Both the position numbers and the translations under genes were made by a program. A DNA stretch of 5,996 bases from Acidobacteriota bacterium. GTDB taxonomy: Bacteria > Acidobacteriota > Blastocatellia > Pyrinomonadales > Pyrinomonadaceae. Positions 1-5,996 of the stretch are shown here, in pieces. The notes below the pieces were generated by a model. The model was given only the letters and a program-made list of their open reading frames with translations, was not told the DNA's origin and searched no databases. The stretch is taken from the NCBI GenBank assembly GCA_020853255.1, contig JADYZI010000259.1:1-5996 (forward strand), read 5' to 3'. The first letter of the stretch is position 1. Every line of letters begins with the position of its first letter.

Positions 1-71
1 GCCATGCGTGCGCGAAAGCCGTGCTTCTTGGCGCGACGGCGGTTGTTCGGTTGAAAAGTTCTCTTCGGCAT
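1..71 (-). CDS. rpmH: Ribosomal protein L34 (bL34), 5' part only
   Basis: Reading the minus strand from the ATG at 71-69 gives MPKRTFQPNNRRRAKKHGF followed by R-A-R-M-A before the window ends. This is the diagnostic N-terminus of bL34, a very small, Arg/Lys-rich protein of the large ribosomal subunit that packs against 23S rRNA. About 24 of the usual ~44-50 codons are present; the 3' end lies outside the window. A purine-rich GAGGGA sits just upstream of the ATG (minus strand, near 77-82), a fitting ribosome-binding site. In many bacteria rpmH is followed by rnpA and yidC, so those genes may lie just beyond the left edge (family knowledge, not seen). Upstream in the same direction is purN, but rpmH appears to have its own promoter. 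Confidence 0.95.
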   Translation of the reverse strand, partial: MPKRTFQPNNRRRAKKHGFRARM

Positions 72-117
72 ACTTGTCCCTCACTGATAGATCCACTTGC
101 GAGAAGTGAAAACCTAG

Positions 118-147
118 AGTTTACGCGCCCAAAAGCCAAATTGTCAA
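118..147 (-). promoter_or_regulatory. Sigma70-type promoter for rpmH
   Basis: On the minus strand a perfect -35 hexamer TTGACA (147-142) is followed after 18 bases by TAAACT (123-118), which keeps the key T, A, A and T positions of the -10 box. Transcription would start near 111, giving a leader of about 40 bases ahead of the rpmH ATG. The -35 lies inside the loop and inner stem of the purN terminator hairpin, so the end of purN transcription and the start of rpmH transcription share DNA. Strength and use are inferred from the motif only. Confidence 0.55.
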
Positions 148-159
148 AACAAATTGGCT
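131..159 (-). terminator. Probable intrinsic terminator of purN
   Basis: Downstream of the purN stop, the minus strand forms a hairpin from AGCCAATTTG (159-150) and CAATTTGGCT (143-134). This gives nine of ten pairs with one central mismatch and a six-base loop, followed directly by a run of T residues (134-131). T residues also precede the stem. The stem is AT-rich and the T-run short, so termination may be partial. Confidence 0.5.
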
Positions 160-187: not shown

Positions 188-748
188 TCACCCGGCAAGC
201 TTCTTCAAAGCGTCGATATAAAGCTGGTGCTCTTCCGCGAGTATCTTCTGCGTGAGCGTTTCGACCGTGTCGCCCTCAAGCCGCTCGACCTCTTTTTGCA
301 GGATCACGGGGCCGTGATCGAGCAGCTCATCGACATAATGCACCGTGCAGCCAGTTATCTTAACGCCGGCCTCAAATGCCTGCTTTTGAGCATCAAGACC
401 GGGGAAAGCAGGCAAAAGGCTTGGGTGAATGTTCACTATCCTGCCCGCAAAACGCCTTACGAACTCGGGCGAGAGCAGCCGCATATAACCCGCGAGGCAC
501 ACAAGCTCGACGCCGCGGCTTTCGAGCGCATCGCCGATCTCGGCATCATGCTCGGCACGTGTTCGCCCGCGTCGCTCAACGACAACTGCCCCGACGCCGC
601 GATCTTTCGCTTTCACGATCCCGGCCGCATCGGCCTTGTCGCTGACGACCACCGCGACCTCCGAATCAGGTATTTCGCCGCTCGCAACCGCATCAACGAT
701 CGCCGCCATATTCGACCCGCGGCCGGAGATAAGAATTCCTAATTTCAT
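188..748 (-). CDS. purN: Phosphoribosylglycinamide formyltransferase (GAR transformylase)
   Basis: PurN transfers a formyl group from 10-formyltetrahydrofolate to GAR, the third step of de novo purine synthesis, in the cytosol. The 186-residue product begins MKLGILISGRGSN; the GRGSN loop (residues 9-13) binds the GAR phosphate. The catalytic triad is complete and in the same numbering as E. coli PurN: Asn106 and His108 in VNIHPSLLP (105-113) and Asp144 in VDELLDHGPVILQ (139-151). LAGYMRLLSPEFV (85-97) is also typical. It is about 26 residues shorter than the E. coli enzyme, all at the C-terminus, and still includes the EEHQLY helix (172-177), so it looks complete. No strong Shine-Dalgarno precedes the ATG, but the start fits the family exactly. 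Its usual partner purM is not next to it; a PurN/PurM hybrid remnant lies 1.4 kb upstream (2110-2352). Confidence 0.97.
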   Translation of the reverse strand: MKLGILISGRGSNMAAIVDAVASGEIPDSEVAVVVSDKADAAGIVKAKDRGVGAVVVERRGRTRAEHDAEIGDALESRGVELVCLAGYMRLLSPEFVRRFAGRIVNIHPSLLPAFPGLDAQKQAFEAGVKITGCTVHYVDELLDHGPVILQKEVERLEGDTVETLTQKILAEEHQLYIDALKKLAG

Positions 749-805
749 TGATTATTCAATGCGCAAATGAGTCCGCAACGGCGCGCGACGCGTATCTTGT
801 AATCT

Positions 806-833
806 ATCATAGCGGGAGTAGAACCAGCGGCAA
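806..833 (-). promoter_or_regulatory. Candidate purN promoter
   Basis: The minus strand carries TATGAT (811-806), one mismatch from the -10 consensus, with TTGCCG (833-828), a four-of-six -35 match, 16 bases upstream. The resulting leader to the purN ATG would be about 50 bases. This would let purN be transcribed alone, which fits its separation from purM. I saw no clear PurR box, so regulation is unknown. Confidence 0.35.
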
Positions 834-960
834 GCAAGGTTTTTAGCAGCCCGCAGGGCTCCTACAGACTATCGTTACTGGGCCGTAGTACTCCTTATCG
901 TCCGGGACCACAAGTCCCATTTGCTGAGCATCCAGTCTCTACTCAAGGAAGAAAAATTGA

Positions 961-2040
961 ATGGCTAGGGATATTGAACCTGTGGATGCGGGGAAATCCT
1001 CCGTCTCAGGGCGCCTGTGTAACTTTCCAACCGGCAGTCCATTCCTCTCACCCACACACAAAATATGGCTCGATGAAATGGTGATCCCCGCTCTTCGCAG
1101 CTCGCCAAACCCTTGGATCGACATCTTCGGCTACGCAAGCCGACTCGGTGACTATGAATTCAATAAGCAACTGTCATACCAGCGTTGTGAGGCGGTCGTC
1201 CGATACGTACGCGCTGCGGTTCCAAATGTCCCGTTCCCTCAAGAATTTGGATTCGGCGAAAGCAAAAGCGATGGTGCAGGAGTTGCTGAAAACGACGGTT
1301 TTTGGCGCGCCGTTGAACTCTATGTCTATGCCAACGGCAAACCGCCAAAACGCAAACTGCCGCCGCCCGAGCCAAGAATCGTTGACGAATGGTTTGTAAC
1401 TACATTTTCCGGAAAAAGCGAATCGGCGATAGTTGTCCTGGGCTACTCGGCGATGATGGGACAGATCACTTTCCAACGTGCTGATGGAACTAAATACTCT
1501 GGTGCGATCGGACTATTCGGACTTAGCGCAGGACTATCCTTAGATATTGGAAAACTGCCGGGCATGTCCAAGGCTCTCAAGCGATTTCCGGCATTGCTTA
1601 AATGGCTCGGCGGCGGCGGTGCGAGCGAAGCGAATGAACTCCTAAAGTGGGTGAAAAAACCGGGCACCTTGCAGTATATTATTAAACGCACACCTGGCGG
1701 CATTGCTCTCTACGATGGGCTGCTTCAGATCCTTGGCGGAGGCAGCGTTTCTCCAAGCTGGGCTCCATCGACCGCCATTGGACTTGTCTTTCCGTTCCAT
1801 CCGCCGCTCAGCACGCTTTCATTCTATGGAGACTGTCTGTGTTACGGTCTTAGCGGAACCGTGGCAGTCGGCACTGCCGGGACATACATCCTCTTCTTTG
1901 GCTATAGGGGAAATATGTATTCTCCCTCATTCTCTTTAGATAATTTTAGAGGGTGTGCGATCATCTCCGCTGCGGGAGCTTCGCTTCAGATTCCGGGACT
2001 GTCGGCGGCGGGCACAATTTACGTTGGAGAGATCACCTAA
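961..2040 (+). CDS. OmpA-domain protein with unrecognised glycine-rich C-terminal half
   Basis: The 359-residue product has two parts. Residues ~15-123 match the OmpA-like peptidoglycan-binding fold (PF00691-type): FPTGSPFLS (22-30), NPWIDIFGYASRLGD (50-64), FNKQLSYQRCEAVVRYV (67-83), GFGES (97-101) and ENDGFWRAVELYVY (110-123). The Arg that contacts diaminopimelate is kept (Arg75), but the Asp of the usual GHTD motif is Ser60 (GYAS). A Pro/Lys-rich linker (126-140) leads to a C-terminal half with alternating hydrophobic, Gly and Ser stretches (155-200 and 285-357) that I cannot assign; it may be beta-rich. No signal peptide or membrane helix is evident at the start (MARDIEPVDAGK), so it is not an ordinary outer-membrane OmpA. 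AAGGAAG nine bases before the ATG supports the start. A small hairpin (GGGAC, 904-908, with GTCCC, 914-918) lies upstream. The gene sits between purN and the purN-purM remnant, opposite in strand to both. Possible roles include an envelope-binding protein exported by another route or a secretion-system cargo; neither is shown. Confidence 0.85.
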   Translation: MARDIEPVDAGKSSVSGRLCNFPTGSPFLSPTHKIWLDEMVIPALRSSPNPWIDIFGYASRLGDYEFNKQLSYQRCEAVVRYVRAAVPNVPFPQEFGFGESKSDGAGVAENDGFWRAVELYVYANGKPPKRKLPPPEPRIVDEWFVTTFSGKSESAIVVLGYSAMMGQITFQRADGTKYSGAIGLFGLSAGLSLDIGKLPGMSKALKRFPALLKWLGGGGASEANELLKWVKKPGTLQYIIKRTPGGIALYDGLLQILGGGSVSPSWAPSTAIGLVFPFHPPLSTLSFYGDCLCYGLSGTVAVGTAGTYILFFGYRGNMYSPSFSLDNFRGCAIISAAGASLQIPGLSAAGTIYVGEIT

Positions 2041-2109
2041 CAGCGAAACGGATCCTAGAAAAATTGGAAAAGAATGTTCGTTTTATCGGCGAGACGGTCT
2101 TTCTTCGCC

Positions 2110-2352
2110 TCAGGCATCAACGATATGCACATCTTTTCGCCCGCCGATTGCTAGTCCCAACTGCACCGGCCTCGGGATTGCCTCCAAAATGACGGCGGAA
2201 TCTGCGGGCGAGCAGATGATGATCATTCCGATGCCCATATTGAACGTGCGGAACATTTCGGTGTCCGAGACATTGCCTAGCCGCTGGATAAGGCCGAAGA
2301 TCGGCGGTTCGGGCCATGACCCGCGGCCCGAAATAAGAATGCCTATTTTCAT
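2110..2352 (-). pseudogene. PurN-PurM hybrid remnant: PurN start fused in frame to PurM C-terminus
   Basis: From the ATG at 2352-2350 the product begins MKIGILISGRGS, matching the first 12 residues of the intact PurN (one conservative change). It then passes without a frameshift into SWPEPPIFGLIQ, GNVSDTEMFRTFNMGIGMII and a short tail ending VHIVDA. The second part is the C-terminus of PurM (phosphoribosylformylglycinamidine cyclo-ligase); compare E. coli PurM with its SW..WPE.F..LQ, GNV and EMYRTFN.GVGMI signatures. Only ~70 of PurM's usual ~330-350 residues and 12 of PurN's ~190 remain, so neither activity is possible. The join lies in R-G-S, shared by both genes (about nine bases of microhomology, CGCGGGTC). 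Over the 35 purN-derived bases there are four differences from the intact copy, three of them silent. The frame is still open for 80 codons, so a small protein could be made, but an 11-bp inverted repeat covers its start codon. Confidence 0.85.
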
Positions 2353-2389
2353 TGACGATACCGACTTAAAGCTCCTATTATCGTCAATG
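2350..2389. repeat. 11-bp perfect inverted repeat around a promoter
   Basis: CATTGACGATA (2350-2360) and TATCGTCAATG (2379-2389) are exact reverse complements separated by 18 bases. The left arm contains the start codon of the minus-strand PurN-PurM remnant and the -35 box of the plus-strand promoter. The right arm begins inside the -10 box. It could be a two-half-site operator, an RNA hairpin on the minus strand that hides the remnant's start codon, or a scar of a hairpin-templated rearrangement. I cannot choose between these from sequence alone. Confidence 0.75.
2352..2381 (+). promoter_or_regulatory. Sigma70-type promoter for the secreted-protein gene at 2433
   Basis: TTGACG (2352-2357) and TATTAT (2376-2381) each match five of six consensus positions, with 18 bases between them. 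The predicted start near 2388 leaves a ~45-base leader to the ATG at 2433. Both boxes overlap the 11-bp inverted repeat, a layout common for repressor operators. The -35 is built from antisense bases of the remnant's start codon region. Confidence 0.5.
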
Positions 2390-2432
2390 CACGACAAAGA
2401 ATGAAACAAGCCGTTGGAGACCACGAAACTGA

Positions 2433-3116
2433 ATGAAAATTTGTCTCATATCTGTTTTTGCATTCTTTATCTTCTCGCTGCCGATCTTCGGCCAGGTAAA
2501 TGACGAAATAGATGTCAATAGCCGTAAGGTGCCCTACGATGTGGAAAATGTAGTGTTTGTCCTGGACGGCACGCCAACGCCCGATGCTGTCGGCTTTGAT
2601 AGCCCAAAAAGCTACTGGAAGTTCAGCTATGAGCTGCGTTTCTTAGATGACATTCACAAAGAATTTGAATTACAAGAGACGCTCGGAACAAAACTTAAAG
2701 ACCGATCCGACAAACCCGTTTCGACATCGAAGCTAAACAAACTTATAGCTCGAGAAGTAAGAAAAATTAGTATCTTGGTGACCAAAGGGAAGATAAAGAA
2801 GCGACCGCTCACCACCGCACGCAATCGCGAACTCTTGATCCCGGTAAAGCTGACTCCCCAGATACAGCAGATCATCGCCCGATCCGCCGGGTCGAACAAA
2901 AATCCTGAATTCGTGATCAGCGTCAAAGGTAAGCTCTATACAAGGACCAGTTCCGGGTTAAAGTTCAAAGAAAAATACGCTGCTCGATTTCCGTGTTCGG
3001 TTAAGATCGAATCTATCGACCAAAAGTTATATTGGGCTTCGAATAGGTGCGGCGTCTCACTCGAAGTTATGAACGAGAACAACACGATCAGGTTTGGGAT
3101 GTTTTCGCGGCTTTAG
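2433..3116 (+). CDS. Uncharacterised secreted protein
   Basis: I do not recognise this 227-residue product. It opens with a clear signal peptide: MKIC, a hydrophobic core (residues 4-19) and a plausible cleavage after FG (20) before QVNDEID. The mature protein is mixed and rich in Lys/Arg and Asp/Glu. It has a basic middle (KLKDRSDKPVSTSKLNKLIA, 87-106; TKGKIKKRPL, 117-126) and two cysteines (Cys188 in RFPCSVK, Cys206 in NRCGVS) that could form a disulfide in the periplasm. No catalytic motif is visible. GGAGA (2416-2420) lies 12 bases before the ATG, slightly long for a ribosome-binding site. The 2701-2760 line is ~43% GC, lower than purN, suggesting a lineage-specific or transferred gene. 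It is convergent with the TPR gene downstream. Confidence 0.8.
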   Translation: MKICLISVFAFFIFSLPIFGQVNDEIDVNSRKVPYDVENVVFVLDGTPTPDAVGFDSPKSYWKFSYELRFLDDIHKEFELQETLGTKLKDRSDKPVSTSKLNKLIAREVRKISILVTKGKIKKRPLTTARNRELLIPVKLTPQIQQIIARSAGSNKNPEFVISVKGKLYTRTSSGLKFKEKYAARFPCSVKIESIDQKLYWASNRCGVSLEVMNENNTIRFGMFSRL

Positions 3117-3136
3117 CTTTCCACAAAGTAATAATG

Positions 3137-3180
3137 CTCTCATTGTCGCCGCAAACTTCGGCCTATCTCTGACATGAGAG
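3137..3180. terminator. Possible bidirectional terminator-like structure between convergent genes
   Basis: CTCTCATTGTC (3137-3147) pairs with GACATGAGAG (3171-3180), with one T bulged. Inside it GCCG (3148-3151) pairs with CGGC (3159-3162). An eight-base asymmetric bulge (3163-3170) breaks the stem, and no proper T-run follows on either strand. The location between two convergent genes favours a transcript-end role, but the structure is imperfect. Confidence 0.3.
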
Positions 3181-3255
3181 TTTCACTTGATAACTTTTGG
3201 CGAACCTACTGTACGGCGATCTTGTTCAGGCCACCTAGGACAACGATTTCTCCGC

Positions 3256-4188
3256 CTATTGCCCGAGCGCCTTCAACCTCGCAAGCGTGGCCGTTGCCAG
3301 ACTGTGTCCGGGCGAAAGCTGGAGAACCTTTTCTAGATCGGGGCGCGCGAGCGAATATTGTTTTAAGTCAAAACGGATCGCTCCACGCAGCAGATATGGA
3401 GCGGCGTAGTTCGGGTCGAGGGATATCGCTTGGTTCAAAGACGCTATCGCGAGATCGATATCCTTTTTCCGCGAATAAATGCTGCCGCGGTCATAGTGGT
3501 ATTTCGCACTGTTGGACTGAAGTTTCAACGCCTGAGAGTTGTCCGAAAGGGCACGGTCGTAATCCGCCGACCGGGAATAGACAAGAGCTCGGCCGTTCCA
3601 GGCCTCCGCATTTGCAGGATCCAACGAGAGAACCTTTTCCAGATCAACAAGAGCCTCGGCGTTCCTTTTCTGCCTGAAATATATTGCCCCGCGATTGTGG
3701 TATGGCTTCGAGTAATTGGGTGAGAGGCGTATCGCCTCTGTGTAATCTGCGATGGCGGCGGCATCGAGGCCTCTGTCCGAATTTGCGATCCCGCGATTGT
3801 ACCAGATCGTTGCGTCCGTCGGCGCCAAGCCGATCGCCGTCGTATAGTCTGCGACCGCACCCACGTGGTCCTTCAATTTGTTCTTGGCGAGTCCGCGTTG
3901 GAAATGCGCTTCTGTGTACCTTGCATTTAGCCGTATTGCTTCCGAATAATCACTGACCGCCGCCGAATAGTTCCCCAAAAAGTAATAAGCCTGTCCGCGG
4001 TTGAACCACGTCGCATACGACGACGGCATCAGCCTGAGAGCACTTGTGTAGCTTGCGATAGCAAGCGTGTAATTCTTCTGCTTATAGTGCCCGTTCCCAG
4101 CGGAAAAAAACTGATCTGCCGTCTGCGCAAATATCGCACCGGAGAAAACAAAAACAAGTAAAAGCGATAGGGATATTCGGGATTTCAT
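3256..4188 (-). CDS. Secreted tetratricopeptide-repeat (TPR) protein
   Basis: The product is 310 residues from the chosen ATG at 4188. A longer reading from 4242 would put 18 non-signal-like residues ahead of the signal peptide, so I prefer the internal start. MKSRISLSLLLVFVFSGAIF, then AQ, forms a standard signal peptide (cut near residue 21). The rest is almost wholly TPR: eight repeats with an exact 34-residue period, starting near residues 24, 58, 92, 126, 160, 194, 228 and 262, with the usual W/Y-x-x-RG, A-x-x-DY and AI-x-L-x-P pattern (for example WYNRGIANSDRG, 129-140). TPR arrays form a right-handed superhelix that binds peptides or partner proteins, here presumably in the periplasm or at the outer membrane. 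The partner cannot be told from the sequence. No enzymatic domain is attached and the protein ends shortly after the last repeat (ARLKALGQ). It is divergent from the gene at 4318, with 129 bases between starts. Confidence 0.9.
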   Translation of the reverse strand: MKSRISLSLLLVFVFSGAIFAQTADQFFSAGNGHYKQKNYTLAIASYTSALRLMPSSYATWFNRGQAYYFLGNYSAAVSDYSEAIRLNARYTEAHFQRGLAKNKLKDHVGAVADYTTAIGLAPTDATIWYNRGIANSDRGLDAAAIADYTEAIRLSPNYSKPYHNRGAIYFRQKRNAEALVDLEKVLSLDPANAEAWNGRALVYSRSADYDRALSDNSQALKLQSNSAKYHYDRGSIYSRKKDIDLAIASLNQAISLDPNYAAPYLLRGAIRFDLKQYSLARPDLEKVLQLSPGHSLATATLARLKALGQ

Positions 4189-4248
4189 ATCGAATGAATA
4201 TAGATGAGTCTTGCGAATTTGAAAAGTGGTCTGCCATCGCAAATTGTC

Positions 4249-5075: not shown

Positions 5076-5358
5076 GAGGCGGCTTGCCGCTCTATTTGCG
5101 GAAAAGCTGTGCTTTTCCGCCTCGCGCTGAAAAAGAAAATGGCGGCTGTGCCGCCGCTCCCGCTCGATGTTCAAGTTCTCAAGAGACACTCCCGCATACT
5201 TACAAACTCTCAGGGGCGCACAGCCGCCATCATCTCACCTCGACGCAAACTATACTGCCGTAAAAGCTCAGCCCTTTAAGTAGAAATTTGCCCGTTGTCG
5301 GCGGCCACAGCCGCCTCCGAGGGATAATTTTCTGCCTTGATCCCCGGCTTGAAAGCCG
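5076..5358. repeat. Cluster of GC-rich hairpins (REP-like palindromes)
   Basis: At least five hairpins occur in 280 bases. They are GCGGC/GCCGC (5079-5083 with 5086-5090); a perfect 10-bp stem GCGGAAAAGC with GCTTTTCCGC around a TGT loop (5098-5120); GGCGGC/GCCGCC around TGT (5141-5155); GGCGGC/GCCGCC around CACA (5300-5315); and CGGCTT/AAGCCG (5345-5358). Two share the same apex, GCTGTGC. Palindromic, GC-rich, clustered and extragenic is the profile of REP/BIME-type elements, which can bind gyrase or IHF or stabilise transcripts. Family membership is inference. Confidence 0.6.
5139..5230. repeat. 13-bp perfect inverted repeat enclosing 66 bases
   Basis: ATGGCGGCTGTGC (5139-5151) recurs exactly in reverse complement as GCACAGCCGCCAT (5218-5230). 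The left copy is also half of a GGCGGC-TGT-GCCGCC hairpin. The arrangement resembles two REP units in opposite orientation, as in a BIME, and could be the boundary of one composite element. Confidence 0.65.
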
Positions 5359-5514
5359 TGGCAATTCAGATCCATCCGAGCGACGAATGTACGAATAAGA
5401 ACGGACGCGTTGGCCGATGGGTCTCTATTTGTTCAGTGAGCACAAAGGAGAATTCATTCGTGCATTCGTGGCTATTTAAGACCCATTGACATGTGTGATA
5501 TACTCATATTGTTG

Positions 5515-5535
5515 GTGTAAACATATGTTTTACAC
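5515..5535. promoter_or_regulatory. Near-perfect 20-bp palindrome, possible protein-binding site
   Basis: GTGTAAA (5515-5521), CATATG (5522-5527) and TTTTACAC (5528-5535) form a palindrome apart from one extra T. An AT-rich dyad with GTGTAAA half-sites would suit a dimeric regulator, but no gene starts just downstream in this window, so a target is not evident. Confidence 0.35.
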
Positions 5536-5592
5536 TCTGATCTTTGACAAAAGTGACATAAATTGTAACTGCCGCCTCGAAAAACGCCGATT

Positions 5593-5641
5593 TTTGTCCC
5601 ACTTTGTCCCACTTTTCCAATTCACGGCGGGACGGGACAAA
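5593..5641. repeat. TTTGTCCC direct and inverted repeat block
   Basis: TTTGTCCCAC is repeated in tandem (5593-5602, 5603-5612). The reverse complement GGGACAAA follows at 5634-5641 with a further GGGAC at 5629-5633. Two GTCCC copies can therefore pair with two GGGAC copies around a ~17-base loop, in either register. Function unknown. Confidence 0.5.
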
Positions 5642-5650
5642 CATCGGGAA

Positions 5651-5692
5651 ATTGTTCATTGTTCATTGTGGATTGTGAGTTGTTAATTGGGA
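5651..5692 (+). repeat. Degenerate heptanucleotide tandem array (forward)
   Basis: Six consecutive 7-base units can be read: ATTGTTC, ATTGTTC, ATTGTGG, ATTGTGA, GTTGTTA, ATTGGGA, followed by the related ATGGAAG. The seven-base period is kept while the units drift, as in short tandemly repeated repetitive sequences known from cyanobacteria. The mutation pattern suggests slippage or templated spread rather than selection on a protein. Confidence 0.6.
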
Positions 5693-5732
5693 ATGGAAGC
5701 CGAACTTGTCGGGTTTTCACCTGTTGAATGAA

Positions 5733-5774
5733 TGATGAAGCGTGCCCTTACTAACGTGCGGGCCTCCGCAACGG
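5733..5774 (+). repeat. Dispersed ~42-nt repeat, copy A
   Basis: The unit reads TGATGAAG, a short variable part, then GCCCTTACTA, one variable base, CGTGCGGGC and a CAACG end. Copy C (5840-5882) matches nearly throughout; copy B (5811-5830) matches the right half only. GCCC and GGGC inside the unit are complementary, so it can fold weakly. No encoded protein is apparent. Confidence 0.65.
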
Positions 5775-5779
5775 ATCAT

Positions 5780-5807
5780 CCGTTCTCCGTTCTCCATTCT
5801 CAATTTC
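5780..5807 (-). repeat. Degenerate heptanucleotide tandem array (inverted)
   Basis: On the plus strand the units are CCGTTCT, CCGTTCT, CCATTCT, CAATTTC. Read on the minus strand they become GAAATTG, AGAATGG, AGAACGG, AGAACGG, the same style as the ATTGGGA/ATGGAAG end of the array at 5651-5692. The two arrays are therefore one repeat family in opposite orientations, flanking copy A of the dispersed repeat. Confidence 0.55.
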
Positions 5808-5810
5808 ACT

Positions 5811-5830
5811 GTGCGGGCTTGCGTCAACGC
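5811..5830 (+). repeat. Dispersed repeat, partial copy B (right half)
   Basis: GTGCGGGCTTGCGTCAACGC matches the right half of copies A and C with small changes, and lies directly after the inverted heptamer array. The left half (GATGAAG to ACTA) is absent, as if the array had replaced it. Confidence 0.5.
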
Positions 5831-5839
5831 ATTTGGTTC

Positions 5840-5882
5840 TGATGAAGGGACGCCCTTACTAGCGTGCGGGCTTCTTCAACGC
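5840..5882 (+). repeat. Dispersed ~43-nt repeat, copy C
   Basis: This is the full-length partner of copy A: TGATGAAG, GGA, CGCCCTTACTA, then GCGTGCGGGCTTC and CAACGC. It is followed immediately by a tandem 8-mer (GCTCTGCG at 5881-5888 and 5889-5896). Confidence 0.65.
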
Positions 5883-5911
5883 TCTGCGGCTCTGCGGGCG
5901 CGACTAATTTC

Positions 5912-5982
5912 GCCGTTTCGCTCACGGCACGGCCCAAAGGATCGGGGTTTGAGACACCGGACGGCTTACACTGACGGCACGG
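5912..5982. repeat. Small hairpin and 9-base direct repeat at the right edge
   Basis: GCCGT (5912-5916) pairs with ACGGC (5924-5928) around a seven-base loop. The nonamer ACGGCACGG at 5924-5932 recurs at 5974-5982. It continues the repeat-rich character of the region; the window ends before any larger unit can be delimited. Confidence 0.35.
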
Positions 5983-5996
5983 GCGAGCAAAGAACC

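Follow-up and report, generated by a model that had tools for sequence, protein, structure and literature searches.

How did an 80-codon open reading frame that begins like purN and ends like purM come to lie upstream of an intact purN gene? The frame is found in the window, by which we mean the whole 5996-nt stretch of acidobacterial DNA analysed here, and had been interpreted from its letters alone as an in-frame PurN-start/PurM-end hybrid left by a rearrangement of the two purine genes. Two loci served as the main comparisons: L001, from MAG SSF31 (labelled Pyrinomonadaceae), to which the window's acidobacterium is close, and L002, from MAG SZAS-14 (genome G002). The features of the window to which the text refers are the following:

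1-72 (-), which we take to be the start of rpmH (ribosomal protein L34)
188-748 (-), intact purN, 186 aa; amino acid identity 96% to L001 and 87% to L002
714-751 (-), start of the intact purN, one copy of a 38-nt direct repeat (repeat search)
752-960 (no strand), putative donor-type DNA from the intact purN to the cargo gene; its match in L002 flanks the orphan purN start there
961-2040 (+), cargo gene of 359 aa with an OmpA-like domain towards the N-terminus (Pfam score slightly below cut-off); amino acid identity 97.5% to L002
2110-2352 (-), hybrid ORF of 80 aa in which a PurN start is joined to a PurM C-terminus (ORF, profile, PDB and repeat searches)
2110-2326 (-), PurM C-terminus, putative donor lineage; identity to L002 83-84% in 2236-2326 and 95-97% in 2113-2235
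2317-2352 (-), purN-start remnant, codons 1-12, MKIG... (MKLG... in the intact purN) (ORF and repeat searches)
2318-2325 (-), junction microhomology CGCGGGTC, R-G-S codons, common to purN and purM (proxy parents)
2433-3116 (+), ORF, 227 aa, in the foreign block (Pfam, NCBIfam and genome searches)
3256-4242 (-), TPR-repeat gene; its last 67 bases (3256-3322) are 67% identical to L001, and 3323-4207 are 97% identical
5290-5996 (no strand), backbone stretch, 94% identical to L001 5943-5237

The frame is indeed a fusion of the two genes. The sequence-only reading had proposed searching the 80-residue product against the PurM and PurN families, and PurM was recovered by the TIGR00878 profile, which matches residues 10-64 with its positions 267-321 of 332 (E = 9.7e-14), by Pfam AIRS_C (E = 5.2e-4, also below its cut-off) and by a PDB search in which PurM chains account for 20 of the 22 matches (best E = 1e-11) and other proteins for the two weakest. 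The score of 51.3 bits is far below the whole-gene cut-off of TIGR00878 (236.35), as expected because only a fragment of PurM is present. The PurN family profiles of the Pfam and NCBIfam scans gave no match, and the purN part is recognized from the direct repeat, in which 714-751 and 2318-2355 are 89% identical with 4 differences over 38 nt, 35 of them coding. Four differences in the 35 purN-derived bases had been counted previously; that count is correct, and all 4 fall within the first 24 coding bases. The frame is enclosed by a longer one of 104 codons with a GTG start at 2424. Its product lacks nearly all of either enzyme and contains no full-length PurM or PurN domain above a curated cut-off; the PurM tail differs from that of L002 by 3 nonsynonymous and 2 synonymous changes, too few for constraint to be demonstrable. 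The hybrid is probably a recombination scar without function.

The two pieces fuse at an 8-nt string, CGCGGGTC, which encodes Arg-Gly-Ser in frame in purN and in purM, just where the join had been placed before; with the same codons in both genes the reading frame is kept automatically. When joins were drawn at random between proxy parents (purN of L002 and purM of L005), a shared string of at least 8 nt occurred with a frequency of 2.3e-4; in this proxy pair one base interrupts the 8-nt string, the length of which thus depends on the proxies. With the same reservation about the parents, the purN/purM fusion is an illegitimate join with microhomology in the 3-10 bp range usual for homology-facilitated illegitimate recombination (HFIR), which is defined by a homologous end plus an illegitimate one. 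Such microhomology was found at most joints of this kind in transformation, and four comparable joints from Escherichia coli conjugation had 0, 0, 0 and 1 nt of homology, according to the available part of PMC3240628; the latter indicate that microhomology is not universal.

The backbone of the window is that of L001. Positions 1-751 are 95.5% identical to it, most of the TPR gene 95% and 5290-5996 94%, and synonymous divergence from L001 is 0.169 in purN and 0.133 in the TPR gene. The order in L001 is purM-X-TPR-purN, where X is a variable stretch and only 13 bases separate the TPR stop from purN; by synteny, the purM stop should lie about 180 bases past the right end of the window. In the relatives L007 and L014 purM and purN are adjacent, in agreement with the ancestral order, purM then purN, from which the earlier interpretation had set out. 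Between the TPR gene and purN, the window contains a foreign block (about 752-3322), 2.5 kb of which is absent from L001 and which consists of the ORF at 2433-3116, the hybrid, the 359-residue OmpA-domain gene and a 209-base stretch preceding purN. The block has its left boundary inside the 3'-terminal part of the TPR gene, where identity to L001 changes abruptly at 3323 (nominal P = 9e-15, best of 424 splits). Further inside the TPR gene, a patch at 3496-3555 is 97% identical to L002 vs 85% to L001, the opposite of most of the gene, and is perhaps another recombination tract.

The identities to L002 follow a different pattern. Window 691-2326 and L002 6251-4615 are 96% identical (97% for bases 752-2235), whereas outside the shared segment identity to L002 is 80% in purN, 86% in the TPR gene and 90% in window 1-154. 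Synonymous divergence from L002 is low in the cargo gene (0.084) and the PurM tail (0.064) but high in purN (0.575) and the conserved part of PurM (0.466), so that the segment postdates the split from L002; its divergence is also below that between the window and L001 in purN and the TPR gene. These divergences indicate that the PurM tail and the OmpA-domain gene were horizontally acquired. The suggestion in the sequence-only reading that the donor was another strain finds support here (synonymous divergence of 0.06-0.08 for tail and cargo vs 0.58 for purN).

L002 itself is not a plausible direct donor, since the conserved part of PurM in the hybrid is just 83-84% identical to it; among the 53 loci compared this part is closest to L005 (90%). 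Within purM, 15 of 91 positions differ from L002 in 2236-2326 vs 7 of 195 in 2041-2235, a step at about 2236 that is nominally significant (Fisher P = 4.4e-4) for a split placed by eye. It runs opposite to conservation, the less identical part being the more conserved one, and the similarity between the purM genes of L001 and L002 stops at L002 4726. The step suggests an intragenic crossover through which purM of L002 acquired the donor's tail.

In L002, purM is followed by the window's cargo gene, and the same 1.06-Mb contig also carries a piece of purN. This orphan purN start (L002 6194-6251) has the upstream flank of the window's intact purN, and possibly continues to codon 59 (46% amino acid identity). 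L002 thus presents the mirror image of the window: judging from the sequences, donor DNA is broken inside purN in L002 and inside purM in the window. The opposite breaks point to a donor with the order purM-cargo-purN.

The explanation that we consider probable is a one-sided capture of donor purM-ompA-purN DNA, by homology at purN and by microhomology on the purM side, as in HFIR. An unsampled relative would have had the order purM, ompA-like gene, purN, and a piece of its DNA beginning inside purM, presumably taken up in linear form, would have been captured at a purN locus. Homology, through purN plus what comes after it, would have mediated the joining on the purN side; on the other side, illegitimate joining would have taken place at CGCGGGTC, common to codons 10-12 of purN and to purM. 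The result would be the old purN start in frame with the PurM tail of the donor, then the cargo gene, then a complete purN. L002 would have been anchored by a homologous crossover inside purM, the far end being broken off in purN. The scar possibly formed in an intermediate donor and was then moved by ordinary homologous recombination; its position inside a larger block, bounded within the 3'-terminal part of the TPR gene, makes such an origin possible.

Several observations bear on this reconstruction. The flank GTCAATG directly before the hybrid is that of the native purN in both L001 and L002, which is weak support because it comprises only four bases beyond the start codon; the intact purN of the window carries the upstream flank of the putative donor. 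Over 35 nt, the purN-start remnant differs at 4 positions from each of the intact purN, L001 and the L002 fragment, and at 3 from purN of L002; assignment to a lineage was rejected because the remnant is too short. Against one-sided capture, purN bases 1-58 of the window differ once from L001 and five times from the L002 fragment, which may reflect either decay of the fragment or another donor; the proposed donor order purM-ompA-purN was not encountered in any genome; and the ORF at 2433-3116, lying in the same block, needs a further event. Within the window's purN no clear identity step marks a homologous crossover, purN being the obvious anchor. Genes of the DprA and ComEC/Competence families are present in all four genomes tested and in most controls, including E. 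coli, so that they permit natural transformation but are weak evidence for competence.

The same anatomy, with a 38-nt direct repeat around the insert, is expected if a circle bearing the PurM tail, the cargo gene and the purN start was excised from the donor through recombination of its purM and purN R-G-S strings and integrated by a single crossover in the purN start of the recipient. Yet the purN fragment of L002 continues beyond R-G-S to about codon 19 and is thus not derived from a circle closed at R-G-S; in addition, 38 bases with 4 mismatches form a short crossover target. None of the six window ORFs scanned encodes an integrase, although a homologous crossover would need none. Integration of a circle is not needed to explain the locus, and we regard it as unlikely. 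The sequence-only reading had put forward a tandem duplication with one end inside purM and the other inside purN, which with later loss of the upstream copy would account for a PurN-start/PurM-end joint upstream of an intact purN. In the window, however, an unrelated ORF and the TPR gene lie upstream of the hybrid, with neither purM nor a second copy of the cargo or of other downstream sequence, and the lineage of the PurM tail and cargo differs from that of purN, the TPR gene and the 5290-5996 backbone. What stands of that proposal is the scar and a donor from another strain, while the flanks and the mosaic identities leave the duplication very improbable.

An import of the scar-bearing block by double homologous recombination in the TPR gene and purN, the scar having been made elsewhere by any mechanism, would fit the foreign edge at about 3323 and the mosaic character of the locus. 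It is compatible with one-sided capture, which leaves the place of origin open, but no source for the block was found: when four candidates were scored per genome, 2353-3330 was matched in 1 of 119 family genomes, and there over 50 bases of the TPR tip only. As a separate account, we give such an import a rather small chance. As to an assembly chimera, the identical hybrid protein is encoded on 25 contigs (the longest of 39 776 bases, from assemblies that are possibly not independent), so that a one-off chimera is unlikely, and the 1.06-Mb contig of L002 holds the cargo together with purM and purN pieces; this explanation is scarcely credible. Site-specific integration at a fixed site in purN was also considered and rejected, since the three purN breaks seen in this study lie at different codons (about 12, 19-20 and 27-28) and share no common core.

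The cargo gene has a pN/pS of 0.15 and is probably a working gene. Close relatives of it are distributed very patchily. Besides the L002 copy, a search that scored the 7999 candidates sharing most words gave relatives at 59-68% identity (P0021-P0031), some of them from MAGs that bear the labels Paraburkholderia and Bosea. Some match to the cargo protein exists in 107 of the 119 genomes given as L001's family; nearly all are short and cover the OmpA-domain part. The only full-length close copy among the 119 is that of SZAS-14, the next best being in G038 (32% over residues 8-190). Carriage by a plasmid, phage or virus was tried as a source and dropped: the gene has no match among plasmids and phages, and in viral contigs the close-relative search returned 2 pattern-matching stretches, none of which was confirmed. 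The ORF at 2433-3116 has neither an NCBIfam match nor a credible Pfam match, and only distant relatives (29-36%) in 3 of the 119 family genomes.

The same genomes were searched for further scars. A match to the PurM tail was found in 107 of 119, with a single match in 106 of these, and no second hybrid was seen by this search. A search with 53 residues of PurN start (limit E = 0.1) had matches in 106 of 119 genomes, two of them in each of five genomes, of which SZAS-14 and G061 are convincing; the second matches in G083, G046 and G041 (E = 0.003-0.09) were taken as other formyltransferases or chance, and in G046 both PurM matches are near contig starts. We also examined 53 purM-purN intervals of 383-10 566 bp (L001-L006, L114 and L118-L163), picked by eye as long and with both genes on one contig; this set excludes adjacent pairs, split contigs, G116 and G044. 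Screened with PurM and PurN panels, 2 of the 53 have clear orphan purN starts, L002 and L114 (from G061). When the DNA was scanned with the purN start of each respective genome, these two intervals scored 46 and 44; the other 51 stayed at 18 or less, the top control also reaching 18.

Weak interval matches (the best, 3e-5, in L005; others in L137, L154 and elsewhere) were left out of the count, shuffled and reversed controls giving 0-5 matches per interval at equal threshold. The one strong PurM match, in L161, was rejected as a scar, being a purM frameshift that leaves two overlapping pieces in different frames; similarly, the orphan purN start of G116 is a frameshift, with purN in two overlapping pieces of different frames, and G044 was dropped because its purN was matched from residue 17 onward. 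The corresponding purM-tail DNA scan reached 25 in L158 and 22 in L160 (controls at most 20), and these matches were discarded, as they are scattered across 160-170 bases, well away from the purM stop.

In G061 the orphan purN start lies between the TPR gene and purN and opens a 70-residue fusion (L114 5381-5593, -), in which the PurN start is in frame with another tail. Compared with the genome's own purN, 8 of the first 24 bases differ and then none of 58 (P = 2e-5). The cargo that follows differs from the window's: one of its proteins has weak 4Fe-4S matches and another is a PMT_2 glycosyltransferase. A protein 96% identical to the fusion is encoded on another contig record of 1482 bases. 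The scars thus total three: the window, L002 and G061. Three short database proteins (P0035, P0038 and P0039) have a PurN-like start and then diverge; each may be another scar or a broken purN gene. P0035 and P0038 are on contigs of 269 and 69 kb, and P0039 is on one of only 565 bases.

The interval between purM and purN is a hotspot of gene turnover between core genes. Mechanical prediction of ORFs of at least 110 aa in the 53 intervals yielded 94, which form 60 clusters, 49 of them singletons, some perhaps spurious ORFs; among the recurring clusters, one of 10 ORFs includes TPR genes and another comprises 10 ORFs of about 380 aa. No integrase or transposase occurs among the 25 of 74 Pfam families listed for 85 of the 94 ORFs. 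That one-sided illegitimate capture is a routine way of loading genes between purM and purN in these acidobacteria seems doubtful to us; if it were so, orphan purN starts and purM tails would let the rate of capture be read from natural genomes, and one cargo with opposite anchors in two species would amount to a natural experiment on one-sided capture.

The event is a capture of known kind, not a new kind of system. As far as the available part of PMC3240628 goes, HFIR has been described in Streptococcus pneumoniae, Acinetobacter baylyi and Pseudomonas stutzeri, with inserts averaging about 1 kb, and the locus resembles it in having a proposed homologous end, an illegitimate end with microhomology, and an insert of about 1.6 kb or more. 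HFIR is RecA-dependent and uses linear incoming DNA. The event at this locus is deduced from natural genomes and not from an experiment, and here the same cargo has opposite anchors in two genomes. Insertion by HFIR is usually coupled to deletion; L001 4957-6480 gave no alignment in L002, and either state may be the older.

An HFIR-like mechanism has been proposed, in the accessible text of PMC5361080, for the displacement of T6SS effector-immunity modules in Vibrio cholerae, where likewise an incoming module anchored on one side displaces the end or the partner of an old gene. The remnants there are immunity genes and an effector 3' end at a toxin locus, whereas in the present case purN starts and a purM tail are left beside housekeeping genes. 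Transfer hotspots, as presented in the part of PMC5635113 at hand, also have variable genes between conserved core genes and recombination in the flanking genes, but their model is double homologous recombination, in contrast to the one illegitimate end proposed here. For small variable segments at dimorphic loci, insertion through one homologous and one illegitimate joint has been proposed (PMC2884548, in part); those cases are within species (E. coli, Staphylococcus aureus and Streptococcus pyogenes), and the text available from that source contains no mirror-image pair. A literature search for purM/purN hybrids returned nothing relevant among the matches listed, judged by title and opening of the abstract.

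The influence of such recombination on wild genomes is mostly inferred. A natural locus here gives both the joint with microhomology, in the window, and the crossover step in purM, in L002; the mirror-image pair with one cargo, together with the scar of G061, is a good natural example of a known event, and as a trace of genes captured through recombination beside purine genes the hybrid is unusually easy to read. The direct repeat that flanks the insert predicts that it can be excised cleanly. Dispersed repeats are also present in the window, at 5290-5996 and at 5079-5156: among the matches listed, those around 5486-5830 occur in many copies, mostly of 72-85% identity, in G001-G003, and shorter ones in G004-G006.
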